The notes beneath the pieces were generated by a model. The model worked only from the letters and a program-made list of their open reading frames with translations. It was not told the origin of the DNA and made no database searches. DNA of 33,714 nt from a virus. The stretch lies in the IMG/VR virus record IMGVR_UViG_3300048592_000073, positions 1-33,714 of that record; one strand, 5' to 3'. The position numbers were made by a program, and so were the translations under genes. Shown here one piece after another: positions 18,342-33,714 of this stretch (position 1 is the stretch's first letter; each line of letters begins with the position of its first letter).

Positions 18342-18415
18342 TGGCGAACCGCCTCAGAATCGAACTGAGATCTACGGTTTTGGAGACCGTCGTTTTACCA
18401 TTAAACCAGCGGAAC
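18342..18415 (-). tRNA. tRNA-Trp (CCA anticodon), acceptor stem imperfect
   Basis: On the minus strand the 74-nt sequence folds as a tRNA. The D stem is GTTT/AAAC with a GG-containing loop, the anticodon stem ACGGT/ACCGT encloses loop CTCCAAA (anticodon CCA, Trp), the variable loop is 4 nt, the T stem CTCAG/CTGAG encloses TTCGATT, the discriminator is G73 (the bacterial Trp identity base), and CCA is encoded. The acceptor strands GTTCCGC and GCGGTTC pair at five of seven positions and leave two adjacent T-T mismatches (2-71, 3-70). It starts one base after the polymerase stop codon, so it must be processed from the operon transcript. Confidence 0.82.
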
Positions 18416-18416
18416 A

Positions 18417-20429
18417 TCAATGAGTTTCTTTCCAAGTTTTCCCCACCTTATATTCACCAGTGATAGGACACTTACATTTGTAGTATCTCCCAGCTTGCTC
18501 TAGGGAGAGTACCTGTAGTCTACCAAGGGTATGTGCATCAGCTTCTGAGCCAACCTCAGTCTGCCATTCGTCATGATTCTGTGTGGATAAACTATATTTT
18601 ACACCCTTCTTATCTGCTTGTCCACACCAAATCTTCAAGGCTCGCTTCATCAAGGTAGCTTCACCCTCTTGTAGTAGCGAAGCGAGCCAGTCACCGTGCC
18701 AGTCAGAAGCACATGGTATCCACCTACCACTGATGCCACTGTAGATGTACCCCTTGCGTGCTTGCTTCTTCTGAGTGTTCATGAAGGACTCCAAGCCGGG
18801 AGTCTCTTTGATGAACTTCTTATATAGTCTACCAGTCTCATCTACTGGCTTGTTGATTGTACTAGCCAGCTTAGTGATACTAGCACCTAAGAGGAAAGAA
18901 TAGATACCTTTATGTTCAATAGGCTTCGCTACTAACCTACCGGTTCTCTTATGAACTCCTGCACATTACTATGCAGAGCAGACTATATCATCACCCTACT
19001 GGGTGTCTGGCGCTTCCACTCGCTTGAGTGTACTCTCTTTCGAGATAGTCGTTGCACCTTCTAAATAAACTTCTTAGAGTCAAGAGTATTTAGCTTGGCT
19101 CAGGATTGTCCTTTAGAAGGAGGTTCCCTGAGTTCACCAGATTTATAGACGTCCTGTATTAAACGTCTTAGCCTTAGGTCGATCACACCCTAAGATGTCT
19201 GCATTACGTTGGTGCACGTCTCCGTTGATTAGCTCGTCTGTCCACTCTTGACTGTCAAGGTAGTGAGCCGAGACTCGTAGTTGAATTCCTGAGGCGTCAC
19301 ACCCCAAGAGATACTTGTTATCTGGTGCCCCCCACAATAGTCTACACTCACTACCATAGGGGCTATCACTGGAGGGTACTTGAGTAATAGGAGGATCGCG
19401 GTGAGCCATTCGGTGAGTTCTGGTTCCAATAGATATGATTTGTCCATGCTGACGATGCGTGTTCTCATTGTAGAACTCCAACCATTTGTCTATCTGTTTA
19501 GTGATACGTGTATTAAGGATACGCCACTCTTGGTATGGCCTGTACTTCTCACCTACCTGATGGATAATATCATCTAAGAGTTCATCATCAAGCTTAGGTT
19601 CTCCAGTAGGAGTTAAAACTTTTGGCTTCCATCCGGCGTGCAGTAAGTGACGTTTGATGAACGCATCTCTGTTGAGGTTGACTTCTGGCCATTTGATCCA
19701 AGCAAATGGGGCTCCGTCAGTAAACCAATCTGTCGGACATCCTCCAAGATTTCTAGTACTAAGTTCTCCGTTTCTTTTAGTCGTCGGGGTCGTGAGTATA
19801 AGCTCTCCTTTAGAATACTTAGCTTCTGCAAGAGAAGGAAATAACTCTCTAAGCTGAAGCTCACACTCTTGTCGTTTATCATTCAGTTCACTCCTAAGAA
19901 CCTGACATTGTTCTATATCAAAGTAGAAACCGTTACGCTCTACCTCTTTCATCTTCCAATGGACGAAACACTCTAGTTCTACCTCCGTCCATGGTATCTG
20001 CTTCTCATTGATACTGTTCTTAAGTAGTCGGTATAGCTTAGCATTGATCTTGGTATCTTCAACACACCGATGGATCATAGCGTCTGATAACACAGACCAG
20101 TCTTCGTGTTCAGGCTTGGTAATCCCTAACCGTTCTCCCCATGCTCCCAAGCTATGACCACCATCACGGTTAGAGTGATCAATGCGAGACATGCAGAGAG
20201 TATCCACCCAGCTATTAATGGGAGGAATAATGCCAAGACAGTCCCTAAGAACCCACCAATCGAAACCAAGAATGTTATGCCCAACAATCTCTGGATGTGT
20301 CGTGGCATAGTTACGCATCTCCTCATACGTAGTTAGGATATCAACATGGTCAGTATCAAGATCACGCCCAACCATGACGTGTATCTTGGTGTACTCTAAA
20401 CCGTCTGTCTCTAAGTCAACTACCTTCAC
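18417..20429 (-). CDS. Family A DNA polymerase (T7-type), interrupted by a group I intron
   Basis: The gene is split: exon 1 is 20429-19162, exon 2 is 18906-18417, and they join in frame to about 585 residues. Exon 1 has the 3'-5' exonuclease motif VVDLETDG at the N-terminus, GHNILGFDWW, and the polymerase motif A LLGCDASGIQLR. Splicing restores motif B as AKTFIYSFLLGAS, aligning with T7 AKTFIYGFLYGAG. Exon 2 has motif C NHDEWQTEV and ends like T7 polymerase. Unspliced, exon 1 stops at 19143, two codons inside the intron-derived frame after motif B. The GTG at 20429 (MKVVDLETDG, Shine-Dalgarno AAGGAG) is preferred over a GTG at 20468, which would overlap the upstream gene by 38 nt. Confidence 0.9.
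18907..19161 (-). ncRNA. Self-splicing group I intron in DNA polymerase gene, no ORF
   Basis: The 255-nt intron is defined on the minus strand. The exon 1 end AGACGTT pairs perfectly with internal guide GACGTCT across an 8-nt loop (P1), with the required U-G pair at the 5' splice site, and the intron ends in G. A conserved P4/P5-type segment (GGACAATCCTGAGCCAAGC) follows, then GGTGCAACGACTAT. GACTAT (19050-19045) and ATAGTC (18986-18981) form P7. CACCC/GGGTG gives a P8-like hairpin and CTGCA/TGCAG a P9-like hairpin. Removing these 255 nt restores the polymerase motif B exactly. No endonuclease is encoded inside, so mobility, if any, needs a protein made elsewhere. Confidence 0.92.
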
Positions 20430-20430
20430 A

Positions 20431-21015
20431 TCATTTAAACTCCTTGATACACTTAAGATGGTACTCACTTGAAGAAATATCCTTGAACTTATCAGGATAC
20501 TTATTGTCTATAAAGGTACACCAATTATCCCATAGTTGGTCTACTCCAATATGTCTACATATAGATAGATAATCTTTAATATTATATTTATTATCTTTAT
20601 TATATTTAATATCTAACTCTTTAAGTATATCTATTAAAGAGTATATAGTACTGAAGTTGTGAATGTCAAGACACCCTACCCTACCAAATGCTAACTGGAG
20701 GATGAAACCACCCTTAGCTACCCCTATCCCCGGTATCTCACATAGTATACCAAGGGCCTCTTCATCTGTCAACGATGGGAGTAGGGTATGGAGCTGAGAG
20801 GTAAGCTTAGGGTGACTCTTGAGCCACTCAAAGGTCTTGATCTTGTTACCCCACACGTAAGGGGAACGTAGCCCTACCTTGTTTACACTTGCAATCTGAT
20901 CATGCATAGCGTAGAATGGTTGTTGAATGGTGAGGGATACGAACTTAATGACACTATGGAAGTTGTCAGGGTTAAGGTGTGCTGCAATCTTAGGTTGAAC
21001 CGTCTTGTAAGTCAT
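20431..21015 (-). CDS. Helix-hairpin-helix DNA glycosylase-like protein
   Basis: A 194-aa helical protein. Around residue 100 it has a helix-hairpin-helix LCEIPGIGVAKGGFILQLAF followed by VGCLDIHN, placed like the HhH motif and catalytic Asp region of endonuclease III/AlkA-type base-excision enzymes. There is no iron-sulfur cluster Cys set. It may act on damaged or modified bases; the substrate is unknown. The start at 21015 is preferred because ATG overlaps the thyX stop (ATGA); the same frame extends to 21039. Codons for residues about 135-160 are unusually AT-rich (Lys/Asn/Tyr/Ile run). Confidence 0.6.
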   Translation of the reverse strand: MTYKTVQPKIAAHLNPDNFHSVIKFVSLTIQQPFYAMHDQIASVNKVGLRSPYVWGNKIKTFEWLKSHPKLTSQLHTLLPSLTDEEALGILCEIPGIGVAKGGFILQLAFGRVGCLDIHNFSTIYSLIDILKELDIKYNKDNKYNIKDYLSICRHIGVDQLWDNWCTFIDNKYPDKFKDISSSEYHLKCIKEFK

Positions 21016-22160
21016 AGATGTTCCATTAAGGCTTTCCAAGAGGTCGGGTATAGCTCTTCAAAGGTAGGCACAAACATCTTAGCGAAGTCTTGGATCTCTT
21101 TCTGTGCACTACCCTCAGTACGTAGCTTTATAAAGTGAGCCCAAGCCAACAGGGAACCAGTCCAATGCCATTCAACCATCTGCGATTGTGGCATCAACAT
21201 ACGCACCTGCTCAGGACATACTCCTTTATCAATCATATCTTTGTATAGGACCTTAAGATTATTGTAAAGTTCATCCACTGAATCTGATTGAGGAAGGATA
21301 TACCCACCATGTAATGCTAGTACCGACTTACAGAATTTTAACAAATCTTCATCAGAGGCATTGTGCTTCATGATGTTAGCTTTATTAGAAATAGTTTGTA
21401 TGTTCCCTTTAATATAGCCTTTAGTGTTATCAATACGATCTACACTAGGTGAATTATCTGTAATACTACTAGATTCATAGTCTAATGTTAACCCAAGATA
21501 GGCACAGCTTTCAGGCATTGGTATATCTTCTGGAGATAGGTCAATCTCTAATCCCCGTCTAGCTGCACTACCTTTTAACCGTTCAAGCTTAGAGACCCTC
21601 CAGCCTTGGTGTGTCTTACGGTATGCTTTTGACTGACAAGATGAGGAACAGTAAATCTGCCTGTTATTAACACTAGTGAATGTTACATTACAATTAGGAC
21701 ACTTACCTTCTTGTCCTTGGTAAGTTACAGTCTTGTCTGAACTTCCTTGTTTCTTATCTTCTGCTCTGCCCCTCCAAGATGTTGGCTTATAGAACTCAGG
21801 AGGAGAGTCAACATAACGACGAGATACTTCACTCCAACTCATACCTACCTGATGCTTACCCGCCTGTCTAGCTACGAAGAGGGGAGCCTTGCAGTGGAAA
21901 GAGATATGAGGATGTCTGAATGGGAGCCAGTGTCCTTCCCTAGCTAGGTAATTTATGAGCTTGGTATCTTTTTCTGATAGATATTTTTTACCGTAATACC
22001 TTCTAATTGGTGGGGCATTATATAGTCCCCTACCAAATTCATCTGTATCCATCTCTTCCCGGTAGTCTTGTACCCAATCAGACTGTTTATCAAAAGATAC
22101 CCTAGCTGCATTGACTACTCCCAAATCACTTGACATATGATCAAGATACGTGACTTCCAT
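21012..22160 (-). CDS. thyX: Flavin-dependent thymidylate synthase carrying an in-frame HNH insertion
   Basis: The 382-aa product is a complete ThyX with a foreign domain inside. N-terminal ThyX part (residues 1 to about 142): WLPFRHPHISFHCKAP and the signature KHQVGMSWSEVSRRY (variant of RHRxxSxNExSxRY), then DSPPEFYKP. C-terminal ThyX part (about 293-382): CPEQVRMLMPQ, HWTGSLLAWAHFIKLR and AQKEIQDFAK. Without the insertion it would be 231 aa, close to usual ThyX length. ThyX makes dTMP from dUMP using folate and FAD, and here complements RNR and deaminase. The start overlaps the 47-aa gene upstream by 20 nt; the stop overlaps the HhH gene (ATGA). Confidence 0.88.
   Translation of the reverse strand: MEVTYLDHMSSDLGVVNAARVSFDKQSDWVQDYREEMDTDEFGRGLYNAPPIRRYYGKKYLSEKDTKLINYLAREGHWLPFRHPHISFHCKAPLFVARQAGKHQVGMSWSEVSRRYVDSPPEFYKPTSWRGRAEDKKQGSSDKTVTYQGQEGKCPNCNVTFTSVNNRQIYCSSSCQSKAYRKTHQGWRVSKLERLKGSAARRGLEIDLSPEDIPMPESCAYLGLTLDYESSSITDNSPSVDRIDNTKGYIKGNIQTISNKANIMKHNASDEDLLKFCKSVLALHGGYILPQSDSVDELYNNLKVLYKDMIDKGVCPEQVRMLMPQSQMVEWHWTGSLLAWAHFIKLRTEGSAQKEIQDFAKMFVPTFEELYPTSWKALMEHL
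21283..21735 (-). mobile_element. HNH homing-endonuclease-like insertion inside thyX
   Basis: Exactly 453 nt (151 codons) interrupt the ThyX frame and are flanked by a 5-bp direct repeat TCAGA. Deleting them gives an uninterrupted KQGSSDSVDELY junction. The insert encodes a zinc-finger-like CPNC...CSSSC, a basic linker, then a CAYLGLTLDY segment and SVDRIDNTKGYIKGNIQ followed by NKANIMKHNAS, the pattern of phage HNH endonucleases. It lacks intein features (no N-terminal Cys/Ser block, no C-terminal His-Asn) and the ends do not fit a group I intron (exon U and intron-end G are not both available). Confidence 0.8.
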
Positions 22161-25317: not shown

Positions 25318-26088
25318 TTACTCTTCGTCGTACTCATACTCATCAAAGTCAAGCACACGACCAACCCACATCTTATCCTTAAGCCTGTCGGTGATATCAT
25401 TGAGGACAGTGTACTCACACACCCTCATCTTAGCGTTGTTGTAGTCTACTGGCACTGCTACAACATCAGCAGGGTTAATCGAGACAGCAACTACCCGGTC
25501 ACTGCCATTACGTACTACACCATAGTGGAACAGATACTCAAACCCACAGACATGTAGACCATGAGAGCAGGTACGGTTAGCGTCCTCGTCTACCATGTTA
25601 CGAGGGACTGACACTACCTGACCCGGACTGTTATCAAACTTACCAGAGAACAGATCCTTGTAGTCTGCCCGTACAATCTTGTAAGCTACGAAGTTACCAT
25701 CCTCAAGGATAGCATGGTTGTTCTTCTCAAGGAACCCATACAGTTCATTGACTGCACGATAGCTAGGGTTCTTTACTAGCTTATCGAGGAAGGCAATGAG
25801 GTGGGACACTCGGTCACCCCCAAGGATACGATCAATGAGGACACCAGATAGAGGTTCCCCATTATAGAGTACCTCAGAGTCAGTGACTACGATGCTAGTG
25901 CCAGCCACTGCTTTACGTACCTTAGTGATTGGCTGCATCAACTCAAGGATGTACTCAAGGGAGTCACCCATTTCGATAGACCCAATAGCCATGTCATAGT
26001 TAGGGTGTGACCTATCAATTGAGGTAGGTACGAACTCCCTATCGAAGACAGTAAGTACGTCACCGTTAATCGTGTAGTTGATTGACAT
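25318..26088 (-). CDS. rIIB: rIIB-like protein
   Basis: A 256-aa protein with the conserved rIIB C-terminal pattern: EDGNFVAYKIV (about residue 130), SGKFDNSPGQVVSVPRN, CSHGLHVCGFEYL (about 174) and SINPADVVAVPVDYNNAKMR (about 205-224). In T4, rIIB works with rIIA at the inner membrane, and loss of either makes the phage sensitive to lambda Rex, which depolarises the membrane. Here it is separated from rIIA by three small coupled genes. The start overlaps the preceding stop (TAATG). Confidence 0.85.
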   Translation of the reverse strand: MSINYTINGDVLTVFDREFVPTSIDRSHPNYDMAIGSIEMGDSLEYILELMQPITKVRKAVAGTSIVVTDSEVLYNGEPLSGVLIDRILGGDRVSHLIAFLDKLVKNPSYRAVNELYGFLEKNNHAILEDGNFVAYKIVRADYKDLFSGKFDNSPGQVVSVPRNMVDEDANRTCSHGLHVCGFEYLFHYGVVRNGSDRVVAVSINPADVVAVPVDYNNAKMRVCEYTVLNDITDRLKDKMWVGRVLDFDEYEYDEE

Positions 26089-26297
26089 TAATAGTCCTCC
26101 ATTTGATTTGAGATCTCAATTAGAAGTTCCCCGAGTTCCTTAGTATCAGCCTTAGTTAGTGTTACCCACTTCTCTGTTCTAATCTCAGTCATTGTTGGTG
26201 ATGTGAGATGGATACAAGTTGTACCACCCCAGTAATCCGAACTGAAGAAGCCACTCTTGTACTTAACTACTGTGACAGTCTCACGGACTGTATTCAT
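26088..26297 (-). CDS. 69-aa unknown protein between rIIA and rIIB
   Basis: Coupled at both ends by TAATG. The product (starting MNTVRETVTVVKYKSGFFSS) is beta-rich at first, then ends in an acidic helix. No family is recognised. Its location suggests co-expression with the rII pair. Confidence 0.65.
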   Translation of the reverse strand: MNTVRETVTVVKYKSGFFSSDYWGGTTCIHLTSPTMTEIRTEKWVTLTKADTKELGELLIEISNQMEDY

Positions 26298-26611
26298 TAC
26301 TCATTTTCCTTTCGGTAAAAGGTTAAGTCAGCTTCACTTACCATGTTAGAAATCCAAGAATTCTGACAGTCGATAAGGACCTCTGGATTAGAACGAAGGA
26401 GATTGATTGCCTTGCTGTGGTTAGCTACTGCTTCTTCGTATGAGTCAGTAGCATATAAGATAATAATATCCCCATCATTGTAGTGGGGATCAGCTACTGC
26501 TGTTTCGTAGGTGTAACGGCCATCAGTAACTCTAGCAGTAGAAACAAACATCCCATCTTCTTCTGTACGAGCAACCTTACGACTATCATAATTTCCAAGC
26601 ATGTCAAGCAT
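26297..26611 (-). CDS. 104-aa unknown protein between rIIA and rIIB
   Basis: A soluble, acidic 104-aa protein. The middle (ETAVADPHYNDGDIIILYAT) is beta-type, followed by a helix and SNMVSEADLTFYRKENE. It starts and ends in TAATG overlaps. No family is recognised. Confidence 0.65.
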   Translation of the reverse strand: MLDMLGNYDSRKVARTEEDGMFVSTARVTDGRYTYETAVADPHYNDGDIIILYATDSYEEAVANHSKAINLLRSNPEVLIDCQNSWISNMVSEADLTFYRKENE

Positions 26612-26802
26612 TACTTGTTCTCCTCTAGGATTGTTGCTACCTTAACGAGATCTGCTGCTAACTTACGCAGATCATAAGAGGAAAACCACTGGCAATTAAT
26701 GCTCACTTCAAGAAAGCGTGAGCAGACCCTACTGACCCGCACACCACCGCCCAACTCTGGGTTACCTTCAATGATAGTATCAACTCTCTTAGTACTAATC
26801 AT
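26611..26802 (-). CDS. 63-aa unknown protein after rIIA
   Basis: ATG overlaps the rIIA stop (ATGA). The product has a basic beta-rich N-terminal half and a helical end (LRKLAADLVKVATILEE). No family is recognised. Confidence 0.65.
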   Translation of the reverse strand: MISTKRVDTIIEGNPELGGGVRVSRVCSRFLEVSINCQWFSSYDLRKLAADLVKVATILEENK

Positions 26803-28706
26803 AATCCAACCTCACTTTTAAAGTTTGACCAATTGATGTACCTATGGATAGGTACGTCTGTAGTTCCAGTGTAATCCTTTACTGTTAAGTTCTTGATGTA
26901 TTCTACCTTCTTCAAGAGTTCTTTATAGTAAGACTCAGCTTTAGGTTTACTCATGTTATCCTTGATGAAGGTGGGAAGGGTAGCCCAATCGTAGGCTCCA
27001 ACAAAGCCAGTCTTATAGTAGTCTAAGTCCTCTACATAATCCATCTCTTTCGGCATATCATTTGAATGAACCTTATTAAGGTAAGACTTGAAGTAGTCTA
27101 CCTTATCAGCACCTCCGTCAGCAATCCATAACTTCAATACCTCTGAGATGTGTGGTACCTTAGAAGCCTTGAGCTTAGTAAGGTTCTTATTAGTAGCTGA
27201 GATAACATAATATCCCCTATTAATCTTATGAGTAGTTATATAATCTTCATACTCTTTCTCTGTATCCCTGATATAATAGCAGGTATTGGTTAGATTATCA
27301 AGGTCTACCGTCGTTTCAGTAGAGTATTCAACATCTCGATATTTATTACCTCTGTAGTACACAACGAGGGCTTGGGTATCTTTGATACTCGGACCTGAGG
27401 TCTTAGTTCTCTTAGCCTTAGCCTTCTTCAATGGCTCATAGTCAGAGAGCTTAAGGTAAGGCACACCAAGGGTAGCCAACTCATCCTCTGCTTCCTTAAG
27501 TGTACCGACTGGGCTGATGTAGAGTAGATTACTCTCAGTTTCCCAGACCTTCTTGATACGAGAAGGTACAAACTTGTCGGTGTCAATTAAGAGATATTTA
27601 ACATTAGTACTATCCTTAGAAGTAAACAGCCTATTGTAGTGGTAATACTTTAACTCACTTACACTACCACTCCTATTAACTTTTATCTCTTTAAACTTAG
27701 AGTACTCTAAGTCAACATTAACTTTCATATATATTCTGACATTATAAGGAATACTATACAGGTACTTGCACTTCTCATAAGGTGTAGTCTTATTCTCTAA
27801 CTCTTCCCTATACTTCTTAATTACGTCTTCTACTGCTGAAGTTAGAAGAGGCTTGAGGTCAGCAGTTGTCTGTTCAGTGTACCTGATTGATTCTCTAGAT
27901 GCAGTGATATTAAGAGAACCGATAGGCCTGACAATTACTAGGTTAGACGAATCAAGAAGAGAACTAAGATTGTTATTTACCAGCTCTTGATGAGAACAAG
28001 AGTAGGGGATGCCACCCATGACTACTAAGAGTAGAGGACTAGCATACTGTGAAGAGTTAGTAAACCTATATAGATCTCCCTTCACTTGTTCAAAGACAAT
28101 AGTATTAGTAACTACCCCCTTAAAGTTAACCTTACTGAAGTAAGCGAGGAAGGTAGCGTAGTATTCGATCTCTCTTTTGAACTCAATATAATTCCTACAC
28201 TTAACTGGGATGCAAACCTTGACACCGCTAGACTCAGTTGAGTTAACCCTGCCCCTTAGTGAGATACTAAATGTACCATCGACATTCTTGGTACACTCAT
28301 ACACTGACTTGATGCCCTCAAACCAAGAGGTAACAGTGAATGAGTCAGTGTATGCAAAGCCAGACTTCGAACCAATACCAAAGCCACCAATCTGGTTGTT
28401 GTTCGTTGTCTTATTGCTGAACCCATATGAGGAGAACAACTCAAGTACAAACTCTTCACTCATACCCTTACCGTAGTCTCTCACTTCAAAGTAAGGGGTA
28501 AGTGAAGAAGGAACAGTTACATCTACCGTCTTACTTTCATCTACTGCGTTAGCTAGGTACTCCCTAACCACTGCCTTGATTGGGTTCTTGTATATGCCTG
28601 ATGAGAGGAGGTCAAACATCTCTGATGTAGGTTTGATACTCATCTGATTAGAGGAGATGACTGACCCGTGTTGAGATAGCGTGTGTTCTTTACGTAGTGG
28701 TATCAT
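26799..28706 (-). CDS. rIIA: rIIA-like GHKL-ATPase protein
   Basis: A 635-aa protein with an N-terminal GHKL ATP-binding domain: N-box REYLANAVDES (about residue 47-57), G1 box VRDYGKGMS (about 74) and G2 box GGFGIGSKSGFAY (about 105). A transducer-like region follows, then a long C-terminal part without known motif. This is the arrangement of T4 rIIA, which acts with rIIB at the membrane against host exclusion systems. AGGTG precedes the start. The gene lies directly downstream of the ExbB/ExbD-like membrane cassette, an association worth attention. Confidence 0.85.
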   Translation of the reverse strand: MIPLRKEHTLSQHGSVISSNQMSIKPTSEMFDLLSSGIYKNPIKAVVREYLANAVDESKTVDVTVPSSLTPYFEVRDYGKGMSEEFVLELFSSYGFSNKTTNNNQIGGFGIGSKSGFAYTDSFTVTSWFEGIKSVYECTKNVDGTFSISLRGRVNSTESSGVKVCIPVKCRNYIEFKREIEYYATFLAYFSKVNFKGVVTNTIVFEQVKGDLYRFTNSSQYASPLLLVVMGGIPYSCSHQELVNNNLSSLLDSSNLVIVRPIGSLNITASRESIRYTEQTTADLKPLLTSAVEDVIKKYREELENKTTPYEKCKYLYSIPYNVRIYMKVNVDLEYSKFKEIKVNRSGSVSELKYYHYNRLFTSKDSTNVKYLLIDTDKFVPSRIKKVWETESNLLYISPVGTLKEAEDELATLGVPYLKLSDYEPLKKAKAKRTKTSGPSIKDTQALVVYYRGNKYRDVEYSTETTVDLDNLTNTCYYIRDTEKEYEDYITTHKINRGYYVISATNKNLTKLKASKVPHISEVLKLWIADGGADKVDYFKSYLNKVHSNDMPKEMDYVEDLDYYKTGFVGAYDWATLPTFIKDNMSKPKAESYYKELLKKVEYIKNLTVKDYTGTTDVPIHRYINWSNFKSEVGL

Positions 28707-30796: not shown

Positions 30797-31513
30797 TCAC
30801 CACTCCTCTGCCTCTTCTTTCGTCAAGAAGAAGTGAATACCACTGGTGCATTCAACCCTAATGTCAGCATCATAAGCGTCAGGGTATGTCAGCTTGCCGG
30901 GGATGTAGTGCGTCTTGTGGACACCCCTACTTACTACTGCTTCGCCTTCAATAACGAATACAAACTCAGCCCTGCACTTACGCCCAACGGGTGTTGCTGT
31001 TCGCCGAGCAGAAGGTGGCACACTCATTTTAACTAGGGTTCCATTCTTCTTTCCCCATACGATAAGTGATCCTTCTTGTGGGATCTGAAAGTGCGGAAGT
31101 ATAGCATCTTCAAGGTCTGCACCTTTGAGGTAAGCACCTATGAGGTCTGCATCTCTGAGGTTAGCACTTCTGAGGTTAGCACTTCTGAGGTCTGCATCTT
31201 TGAGGTCTGCACCTCTGAGGTCAGCACTTCTGAGGTCTGCATCTCTGAGGTCTGCACCTCTGAGGTCAGCACTGCTGAGGTTAGTACCTCTGAGGTCTGC
31301 ATCTTCAAAGTCTGCACTTCTGAGGTCTGCATCTTTGAGGTTAGCACCTCTGAGGTCAGCACTGCTGAGGTTAGCACCTATGAGGTCTGCACCTCTGAGG
31401 TCTGCACCTCTGAGGTCTGCATCTCTGAGGTTAGCACCTCTGAGGTTAGCACCTATGAGGTCTGCATCTTTGAGGTCTGCACCTCTGAGGTCAGCAAACG
31501 GTGTAATATTCAT
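30797..31513 (-). CDS. Pentapeptide-repeat protein with C-terminal DUF5758-like domain
   Basis: A 238-aa protein from ATG 31513 ([14 protein letters not shown]). Residues about 7-136 are 26 uninterrupted A(D/N)LxX pentapeptides, predicting a right-handed quadrilateral beta-helix of about 6.5 turns. Residues about 140-238 form a separate domain with [31 protein letters not shown] and [14 protein letters not shown], the pattern seen in phage proteins annotated DUF5758. Pentapeptide proteins of the Qnr/MfpA type mimic DNA and bind gyrase; that role is possible but not shown. Five bases separate it from the upstream gene. About 110 nt of non-coding sequence follow. Confidence 0.85.
31106..31495 (-). 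repeat. 26 tandem 15-bp units encoding pentapeptides
   Basis: The segment consists of 15-bp units that on the plus strand read near CCTCTGAGGTCTGCA, differing by a few bases each. Conservation at the DNA level, including silent sites, is high enough that slippage or recombination between units is likely. It produces long spurious open frames on both strands. Confidence 0.9.
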
Positions 31514-31517
31514 TGTC

Positions 31518-32069
31518 TTACGCTGCCTGCTTGTACTGTTCAACCAATGCCTGCACTGCACGGGTAAGTTCATGGACCCTATGCTTATCGGTAGGCTTGA
31601 TCTCTTTCTTGTCCTCAATCGAAGCAATCGCTTCAAGCCTCTTAATCAGGCTATCATAGCCAACGATAGCATCCGCGCTAGACTTGGAGGTGAGCTTGAA
31701 GTATGGCACCTCACTAGCCTCAGTGAAATGCCAGTCGTCATCAGTCAGGTTATCCCACTTCTTGGCAAGCTTCACACGATAGGTGAGCTTCTCCTTATCA
31801 AACAGCACCTTGATAGGAAAGTTAGTCTCAGTCCAAGCCTTCATCTGTTCGTGGTGAGACTTAACATCGTTGTCAAAGAGCCCCTGAAAGAGTGCCTGCA
31901 TGTACTTGTCAAGGCCAGCACCCTTGTTTTCCCAAGCATACTGGACAGAAGCACACAAGGCTACGTGGATAGAGTTACGTGCCTTTACACTGCCGTTGAT
32001 AGCAGACTTGACAGCACCACCCACCTTGGCAGCACTGATGTGGTTGGTGGTCGTCAGTTCGGTAGTCAT
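31518..32069 (-). CDS. 183-aa unknown early protein
   Basis: ATG 32069 has a strong GGAGGT Shine-Dalgarno about 8 nt upstream; an in-frame ATG at 32144 is rejected since it overlaps the 30-aa gene completely. The product is helical and Lys-rich, soluble, with [20 protein letters not shown] near the N-terminus and a [23 protein letters not shown] closing helix. No family is recognised. As an early gene it may act on the host or in replication. Confidence 0.75.
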
Positions 32070-32070
32070 A

Positions 32071-32163
32071 TCAGCAACCTCCGTAAAGAGTACCCGCACC
32101 CATTGCACGGATAGCAGACCAATACATTTCCATGTGAAGAGCACACCACTCTTGCTTAGTCAT
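32071..32163 (-). CDS. 30-aa micro-protein
   Basis: ATG 32163 overlaps the TGA of the upstream gene (ATGA); TGA at 32073-32071 is one base from the next ATG, and the last codons contain that gene's Shine-Dalgarno. The product starts [20 protein letters not shown]. It may be a translated coupling leader rather than a functional peptide. Confidence 0.45.
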
Positions 32164-32363: not shown

Positions 32364-32514
32364 TGACACACTCCTTCTCATACACTGCATAAGCTTTCAA
32401 AAGCTTCTGGAAGTTGTAGTCTTCGGTTGCACTGCCGGGAGACGACTGATGGACACGGAGCCACCAATAGGCGGCATCTGCCATGTTCAGAAGAGCGAAC
32501 AGCTTCTTAAGCAT
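32353..32514 (-). CDS. 53-aa protein, first gene of the leftward arm
   Basis: ATG 32514 follows TTGGAGAAG (Shine-Dalgarno GGAG). The 53 residues start MLKKLFALLNMADAAYWWLR and are amphipathic. It overlaps the next gene by 11 nt. The 14-bp inverted repeat 32528-32574 sits immediately upstream of its ribosome-binding site, so this gene and the operon behind it may be controlled there. Confidence 0.6.
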   Translation of the reverse strand: MLKKLFALLNMADAAYWWLRVHQSSPGSATEDYNFQKLLKAYAVYEKECVNER

Positions 32515-32527
32515 TCTTACTTCTCCA

Positions 32528-32574
32528 AGTTAAACCATGAAGGATAAGACATGCTTACACTTCATGGTTTAACT
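32528..32574. promoter_or_regulatory. 14-bp perfect inverted repeat in leader of early arm
   Basis: AGTTAAACCATGAA at 32528-32541 is perfectly complementary to TTCATGGTTTAACT at 32561-32574 with a 19-nt loop. In the leftward transcript it forms a hairpin ending a few bases before the Shine-Dalgarno of the first gene. There is no U-tract on either side, so a terminator is unlikely. An RNase III processing site (as in T7 early mRNA), an operator or a translational control hairpin are possible. Confidence 0.7.
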
Positions 32575-32599
32575 AAACATACCTTTCACCCATTGGTAC

Positions 32600-33145
32600 T
32601 ACAGTTCTATAAGTAAGCAGGGTACTAACTTTCGTCAGCTTGCTAGCTTACTCGCGGTCCCGCAAACTTACCCTAGTCGCTGGTTTCCGTTGGAAGGTAT
32701 GCTAGTGCATGTATTACAGTGCAGGCCCATGCTGGCTTAGACGAGGTTGACAGCTCGCCATTGCAGAGGTTATCAGCCTCGATAGGGTGGTACTAAGTTC
32801 CACATGCCTGCCGTTCGGTGTACCCTAAGTGTGCCACAAAGGACAAGCCACACTCGGGCCTTGGTACTAGGCGTACATGTGTTGCAGTCAAGCTCCACAC
32901 TATCCGATATTAGCTCACCTGCGCCTCGATAGGTTACACGAGGCCCGAGCCATAGCTGCTAGGTATCGCTGACGACGAAACCCTAGCATGGTAGCGGCAT
33001 GTTACCTCCGCTCGTCAGATGGGAACGCTGCGTGTTCCCGGTATCTCTCTACATAGTCACTGGCATTGCACCAGTCAAGAGCCGACGCAACAGGGTCAGA
33101 GCAGACCCTCAAGAGACCCACTAAGGGCCGGTGCCGCGTTGGCAA
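32600..33145 (+). ncRNA. Putative large structured non-coding RNA (about 550 nt)
   Basis: No credible frame exists here, yet complementary segments are dense. The main helices are 32612-32618/32646-32652, 32619-32624/32669-32674, 32721-32726/32806-32811, 32853-32863/32939-32949 (11 bp), 32869-32875/32920-32926, 32957-32963/32982-32988, 32969-32975/33012-33018, 33021-33026/33034-33039, 33059-33063/33071-33075, 33081-33088/33136-33143, and 33092-33097/33104-33109. Two pairs of helices interleave as pseudoknots. Three helices contain internal G-U pairs only if the plus strand is the RNA. Ends and promoter are not defined. Giant phage RNAs such as GOLLD and ROOL are comparable in size; identity with them is not claimed. 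Confidence 0.55.
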
Positions 33146-33176
33146 GACAGACCATAGGCTTTGCTGCACTGCTTCA

Positions 33177-33388
33177 CAAATTAAAAATAATCCATGATAT
33201 AGCCTTTGCTATGTTCCCTTCGCGTATATGAATGCAAGTAGCGTGCCAAAGGATAAGATTCCTGTGGATAAGTGGTGGAATACAATGTGGATAACCTTGT
33301 GGATAAGTGCTGTTCCACATACCGGAAATTCCCCGTGAGACGACGATAAGGCATACAGACGAGGGATACCCCATGGAAGTTATCCACA
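33177..33388. other. Candidate replication origin: AT-rich tract plus four DnaA boxes
   Basis: An AT-rich stretch (33177-33201) is followed by perfect DnaA boxes (TTATCCACA or its complement) at 33263-33271, 33286-33294, 33298-33306 and 33380-33388. The first three are in one orientation and the fourth in the other. The AT-rich part would serve as the unwinding element. Host DnaA consensus is known; use by this phage is inferred. A single further copy lies inside the polymerase gene (18582-18590). Confidence 0.6.
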
Positions 33389-33448
33389 GCCTGACGAGGC
33401 TCCTAGAGGCCCTTCCGATGATGCTATGAAGTATAGCCTTTGCTATGT
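33198..33448. repeat. Repeated hairpin TATAGCCTTTGCTATGT, two copies
   Basis: The 17-bp sequence occurs at 33198-33214 and 33432-33448, on either side of the DnaA-box cluster. Each copy folds as ATAGC-CTTT-GCTAT. A shorter relative (AGGCTTTGCT) is near 33156. They could be protein-binding or RNA-processing sites bracketing the origin. Confidence 0.6.
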
Positions 33449-33450
33449 CT

Positions 33451-33520
33451 GGTCTAGGCTAGGAGACAGGTAAGGCTAGGGTTTCCCTAGGCATAGGCTA
33501 AAGCTAGGGATAACGTAGGG
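33451..33520. repeat. CTAGG-rich tract with CTAGGG-TTT-CCCTAG hairpin
   Basis: CTAGG or TAGGCTA elements recur about six times in 70 bp, and CTAGGG (33476-33481) with CCCTAG (33485-33490) form a 6-bp hairpin with a 3-nt loop. No U-tract follows. Nothing else is seen here; a protein-binding cluster is possible. Confidence 0.45.
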
Positions 33521-33563
33521 TGAGGCAACTTTGAACGATCAGTCAAAGATGTACGCGCTTACC

Positions 33564-33707
33564 CTTTAATAGGTATACTCTTATGCAAGTACAATGGTAT
33601 AGGCTTATACAGGTACACTTTTACAAAGGTATGCAACTATACGCGTATAAGCCCATGCGGGTACAAGCTGATAACCCTTGGGGGGTATACCCTTGTAAGG
33701 GTAAACC
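33564..33707. repeat. Array of 18 imperfect 8-bp repeats
   Basis: From 33564 the sequence can be cut into eighteen consecutive octamers that alternate mainly between a GGTAYAC-type unit (for example GGTATACT, GGTACACT, GGTATGCA, GGTACAAG, GGTATACC, GGTAAACC) and a CTTATRCA-type unit (CTTATGCA, CTTATACA, CTTGTAAG). The GGTA units begin at 33572, 33596, 33612, 33628, 33660, 33684 and 33700, all separated by multiples of 8. T7 has comparable short-repeat arrays of 7-bp units beside its terminal repeats; a packaging/end-formation or replication role is inferred. Confidence 0.7.
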
Positions 33708-33714
33708 ATTAAAA

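Follow-up and report, generated by a model that had tools for sequence, protein, structure and literature searches.

What is encoded in the longest stretch without an open reading frame (ORF) of 75 amino acids (aa) or more, positions 32391-33714, of the IMG/VR virus record IMGVR_UViG_3300048592_000073, a linear record of 33,714 bases that was analysed over its whole length? A reading of the letters alone (hereafter the sequence-only reading) had proposed a large structured RNA, perhaps of a new class, in this early control region, at 32600-33145 and on the plus strand. Comparison with a relative bears out a large RNA at this place, with a different fold: the stretch very probably encodes a real, conserved structured RNA of about 600 nucleotides (nt), located at 33172-32573 on the minus strand rather than at 32600-33145 on the plus strand.

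A scan with the primase-helicase yielded a sole near relative, IMG/VR 3300022678_000014 (L003), whose primase-helicase is 62% identical. Its gene order is that of the record, with a gene-free leader upstream of the same early genes. The two leaders are homologous, as blastn aligns record positions 32572-32659 with L003 positions 949-860, in reverse orientation, at 75% identity (E = 6e-7). The absence of genes claimed by the sequence-only reading held: the short ORFs of the region have no counterpart in L003, and leader ORFs of 40 aa or more gave no match there.

The two leaders also share folding on the minus strand. The minus-strand consensus fold of a plain MAFFT alignment (A3) has a free energy of -97.1 kcal/mol. 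When the columns of a second sequence-only MAFFT alignment were shuffled, the minus strand had a z score of -6.2, with 0 of 150 shuffles as good, and the plus strand one of -1.3. A more stringent null kept the alignment columns whole and shuffled them by dinucleotides, 120 times per alignment; under it the minus strand scored z = -5.2 for A3, -5.3 for a local-pair alignment, -3.8 for an alignment with tighter ends (A7) and -6.1 for the 3' domain (A6), and not one of the 120 shuffles was as good in any of the four. The corresponding plus-strand values were -1.1, -1.1, -0.5 and -2.1, and this procedure, applied to five coding alignments of the two phages, gave +0.6 to -2.9. Compensatory changes point the same way: of the 72 pairs in eleven helices taken from the consensus fold, 19 are double changes; shuffles gave 9.6, and sliding the partners of these pairs by 1-3 columns left 0-2. 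Because these pairs were selected from the consensus fold, the double-change count is biased upward, and the case rests on the column-shuffle z tests.

A plus-strand RNA was accordingly rejected (z from -0.5 to -2.1 across alignments, against -3.8 to -6.2 for the minus strand). The plus-strand orientation had been argued from three G-U pairs (32862/32940, 32874/32921 and 33084/33140), which are real but sit in helices that are not conserved, so that this orientation is not supported. The same fate befell the individual helices of that reading. The five that were checked, among them an 11-bp long-range helix and the four helices of two proposed pseudoknots, are indeed complementary on the plus strand (11/11, 7/7, 6/6, 7/7 and 7/7), but they are not kept in L003, where the aligned bases leave 1-5 pairs of 6-11. 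Nor is the density of helices unusual, with 13 helices of at least 9 bp against 13.6 expected, and a longest helix of 12 bp, equal to the shuffle mean of 12.0. Taken by itself, the record sequence has an ordinary folding energy on both strands when compared with dinucleotide shuffles (z = -0.46 for plus and -1.12 for minus). Such ordinary energies and helix counts would suit a region of diverged noncoding DNA with chance complementarity and no functional RNA; this is nevertheless highly improbable, since the minus-strand consensus fold beats all shuffles in four alignments, whereas the plus-strand and coding controls fall short.

The consensus fold suggests two domains (Table 1). Recurrence of helices was scored over six alignments, two of which were re-weighted sequence-structure alignments from a custom fold-and-align program, used for robustness only. 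For helix P1, the chance of finding 8/8 complementary positions there in both phages is about 3e-5, before correction for the choice of segments. The helix that closes the 3' domain has 10 contiguous pairs, and the maximum in 30 shuffles was 9. Identity between the record and L003 increases along the RNA: the first part of the 5' domain has 44%, the second part 57% and the 3' domain 64%. Details in the first part are provisional, because identity there is so low.

Table 1. Predicted RNA, its structural elements and its surroundings in the record; "alignments" refers to the six in which helices were scored.
Feature	Coordinates	Strand	Evidence
Predicted large structured RNA, ~600 nt	33172 to 32573	-	Conserved folding with L003 334-948 (615 nt)
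5' domain, probably closed by P1	32716-33172	-	Consensus fold; identity 49%
Helix P1, 8 pairs	33172-33165/32723-32716	-	4 double changes; 5/6 alignments
Hairpin; covarying stem of 6-7 bp, loop GCAAUG invariant	33075-33059	-	3 double changes; 6/6 alignments
Long-range helix, 12 pairs	32904-32891/32794-32781	-	4 double changes; mostly 5/6 alignments
Extension of long-range helix	32882-32880/32804-32802	-	2 double changes; consensus fold
Linker AAUAC(A/G)UGC joining the two domains	32706-32715	-	8/10 positions identical in L003
3' domain, 133 nt, with conserved GACCGCGAGUAAnCUAGCAAGCUG block and small hairpins	32573-32705	-	64% identity; z -6.1; blastn E 6e-7; covariance model R1
Closing helix of 3' domain, 12 pairs	32705-32694/32585-32573	-	4 double changes; 5-6 of 6 alignments
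TTTAAT, possible -10 box	33185-33180	-	Same sequence in L003; ends 7 nt short of P1
Strong hairpin, 21-nt arms, 90% complementary, no U-tract	32574-32528	-	z -5.3; directly after 3' domain
Four exact DnaA boxes TTATCCACA	33263, 33286, 33298 (-), 33380 (+); span 33263-33388		4 of the record's 5
First small ORF after the RNA, 53 aa	32356-32514	-	No homology to first ORF of L003
Second early gene, 76 aa	32160-32390	-	Homologous in L003, 43% over 53 aa; fixes synteny
Early gene, weak PHROG 1448 match	31518-32144	-	57% identical in L003

How would such an RNA act? The best explanation, and one to which we give about an even chance, is a free-standing, highly structured noncoding RNA that acts in trans. 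It is preferred because of the large structured RNA itself, the exchangeable neighbouring ORF and the hairpin that follows. We infer its promoter, processing, accumulation, time of expression and action in trans along the following lines. The RNA would come first among the products of the early operon, transcribed leftward (on the minus strand) from a promoter adjoining the origin-like cluster of DnaA boxes, with TTTAAT as its possible -10 box. In the folded RNA, the conserved linker would join a 5' domain that is large and evolves faster to a 3' domain that is better conserved. The RNA would probably be cut from the early mRNA at, or end at, the strong hairpin after the 3' domain, a possible RNase III processing site. 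Once released, it would work in trans as a folded RNA, as is supposed for ROOL and GOLLD. In L003 a different strong hairpin occupies the same place (z = -3.0), so that RNA and ORF are separated by a hairpin in both phages.

The neighbouring genes bear on the main rival to this explanation, in which the RNA would be a cis-acting structured 5' leader that stays attached to the early mRNA and controls early transcription or translation, for example by processive antitermination like the put RNA of HK022, by attenuation, or by hairpin control of the ribosome-binding site of the first ORF. We regard such a leader as rather unlikely. The RNA does lie directly upstream of the early genes, shares their strand and is not separated from them by a convincing terminator, and in L003 the fold that comes after the RNA pairs the AGGAGAGG ribosome-binding site. 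However, conservation of the RNA does not extend to the ORF next to it: behind the leader the two phages have different first ORFs, whereas the second and third are homologous (Table 1). With its immediate neighbour exchanged and the later genes retained, the RNA is not bound to any single adjacent gene. It is also, to our knowledge, far larger than known antitermination leaders or riboswitches, which counts against this rival.

On the other side of the RNA, 90-216 bp separate its 5' end from four exact DnaA boxes upstream, which suggest a DnaA-dependent origin beside the early promoter; L003 has one DnaA box, at position 161. RNAs of replication and packaging are encoded beside origins or genome ends, and these boxes, like that background, favour an RNA that would serve as primer or regulator at the adjacent origin, or would act in packaging as in phi29. 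Such a role is improbable, and less likely than either a free-standing RNA or a cis-acting leader. Transcription of the RNA heads away from the DnaA boxes, so that it would not prime through them, the region has no Rfam match, and this place may not be a genome end, as the record is probably a fragment. A 17-nt direct repeat that includes the dyad ATAGCAAAGGCTAT was also observed here; one copy (33198-33214) closely precedes the possible promoter, and the other is at 33432-33448. It is a possible regulator site. L003 carries AAGCTATGC repeats upstream of its RNA.

Several points weigh against a free-standing conserved RNA as proposed here. The case for conserved structure comprises two sequences only: protein, alignment and motif scans of viral contigs and one genome scan brought up no third homologue, and the covariance model R1 of the 3' domain matched 0 of 91 more distant loci. 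Identity of 44% makes the alignment and the helices in the first part of the 5' domain uncertain, and the folding energy of the record sequence alone is ordinary, as given above. The covariation seen would be the same for a cis-acting leader. At the 5' end, TTTAAT has no good -35 box and is not reported by the promoter scan, and at the 3' end of the RNA no intrinsic terminator was found. Two further candidates were discarded: a motif match in a Saccharibacteria contig (L085), inside a gene resembling a kinase, was put down to chance, and antisense pairing to other phage genes yielded isolated 13-mers only, which were taken as noise, without a shuffle control.

The record is probably a fragment, because its left end cuts an ORF. 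Virion genes occupy the plus strand on its left side and replication and early genes the minus strand on its right side, where the first early ORF ends the gene array at 32514. A search at the DNA level retrieved no related phage records, and protein-level matches reached only ~30% identity (SIO1-like, Celeribacter and cyanophage podoviruses), as for the primase-helicase, which is ~30% identical to those of SIO1-like podoviruses, Celeribacter phage P12053L and Synechococcus podoviruses. Further genes encode a family A DNA polymerase, a 5'-3' exonuclease, a ribonucleotide reductase and rIIA. The polymerase gene is interrupted by a group I intron (18959-19204, minus strand; Rfam RF00028, 89 bits), and the polymerase of L003 is uninterrupted (a 602-aa ORF at L003 12076-13884). 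Just downstream of the polymerase gene lies the sole tRNA of the record, a tRNA-Trp (CCA) at 18342-18415 on the minus strand. Also on the minus strand, a thyX-like gene (21012-22160) contains an inserted HNH-endonuclease-like segment, apparently present in L003 as well, as judged by eye from the translation. Genes like rIIA and rIIB stand side by side at 25318-28706 (minus strand), both also in L003; this pair is typical of large T4-like phages, and is found here in a podovirus-like small genome. Near the start of the early operon, the protein encoded at 30797-31636 (minus strand) contains many pentapeptide-like repeats in a long series.

Known structured noncoding RNAs longer than 500 nt are few; phages encode several of them, without known function. 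A distinct family heading an early operon would be an independent case, in a place that suits direct functional tests such as knock-outs and infection time courses. The locus further illustrates that a large RNA may go unnoticed in the folding energy of one sequence and yet emerge from comparison with a single distant relative, and that the strand of a candidate structured RNA needs testing.

How does this RNA compare with those already described? The predicted RNA fits the broad kind of large structured noncoding phage RNAs, with several hundred nt, no conserved ORF and compensatory changes between two homologues. Its place outside Rfam is supported, since cmscan against Rfam 15 with permissive filters and E up to 5, run on the region and on the L003 leader, returned only two spurious microRNA matches. 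Neither the ROOL nor the GOLLD covariance model matched the region or the L003 leader at E up to 5, and no group I or group II intron or other Rfam ribozyme scores in the region (the group I model scores at the polymerase intron described above).

The phi29 pRNA is a 174-nt RNA that acts at the portal, and the present RNA is about three times that size, which counts against a packaging role. Both are structured phage RNAs from an early control region, but the present locus shows no sign of packaging and has no match in Rfam. Another large phage RNA is the abundant noncoding transcript of ~800 nt at the start of the lysis cluster of ICP1, seen by RNA sequencing (RNA-seq) (PMC7567579). As far as its description goes, it resembles the present RNA as a large noncoding transcript of a lytic phage away from tRNAs; it differs in lying at the lysis cluster and in having been detected by RNA-seq, whereas the present RNA is predicted to head an early operon.

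ROOL and GOLLD, to which the sequence-only reading had likened this region, are phage-encoded RNAs of unknown function that form RNA-only cages, the ROOL cage being a homo-oligomer, an octamer (PMC12286853). The resemblance extends to size and phage context, and not to covariance-model matches or to a setting in a tRNA cluster. Like ROOL, of which env-120 has 659 nt (PMC12286853), the present RNA is phage-encoded, of comparable size and elaborate in secondary structure; ROOL is often near tRNA islands, whereas the present RNA heads an early operon beside DnaA boxes, with the nearest tRNA ~14 kb away and no tRNA cluster at the locus, although "often" is not a requirement for ROOL. GOLLD RNAs are often over 800 nt and near tRNAs, with a conserved 3' region and a variable 5' region (PMC12286853). 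In the two sequences of the present RNA the 3' part is better conserved than the 5' part (64% against 49% identity), but the RNA has only ~600 nt and no Rfam match. It is thus most likely analogous to ROOL and GOLLD and not a member of either. Going further, we tentatively consider, at somewhat less than an even chance, that it represents a class of its own among large free-standing phage RNAs, the first to be made in infection, from a promoter next to the DnaA-box origin. Its two-domain architecture would be unrelated to those of ROOL and GOLLD, and it might assemble with other copies into an RNA-only structure or commandeer some host machine soon after infection.
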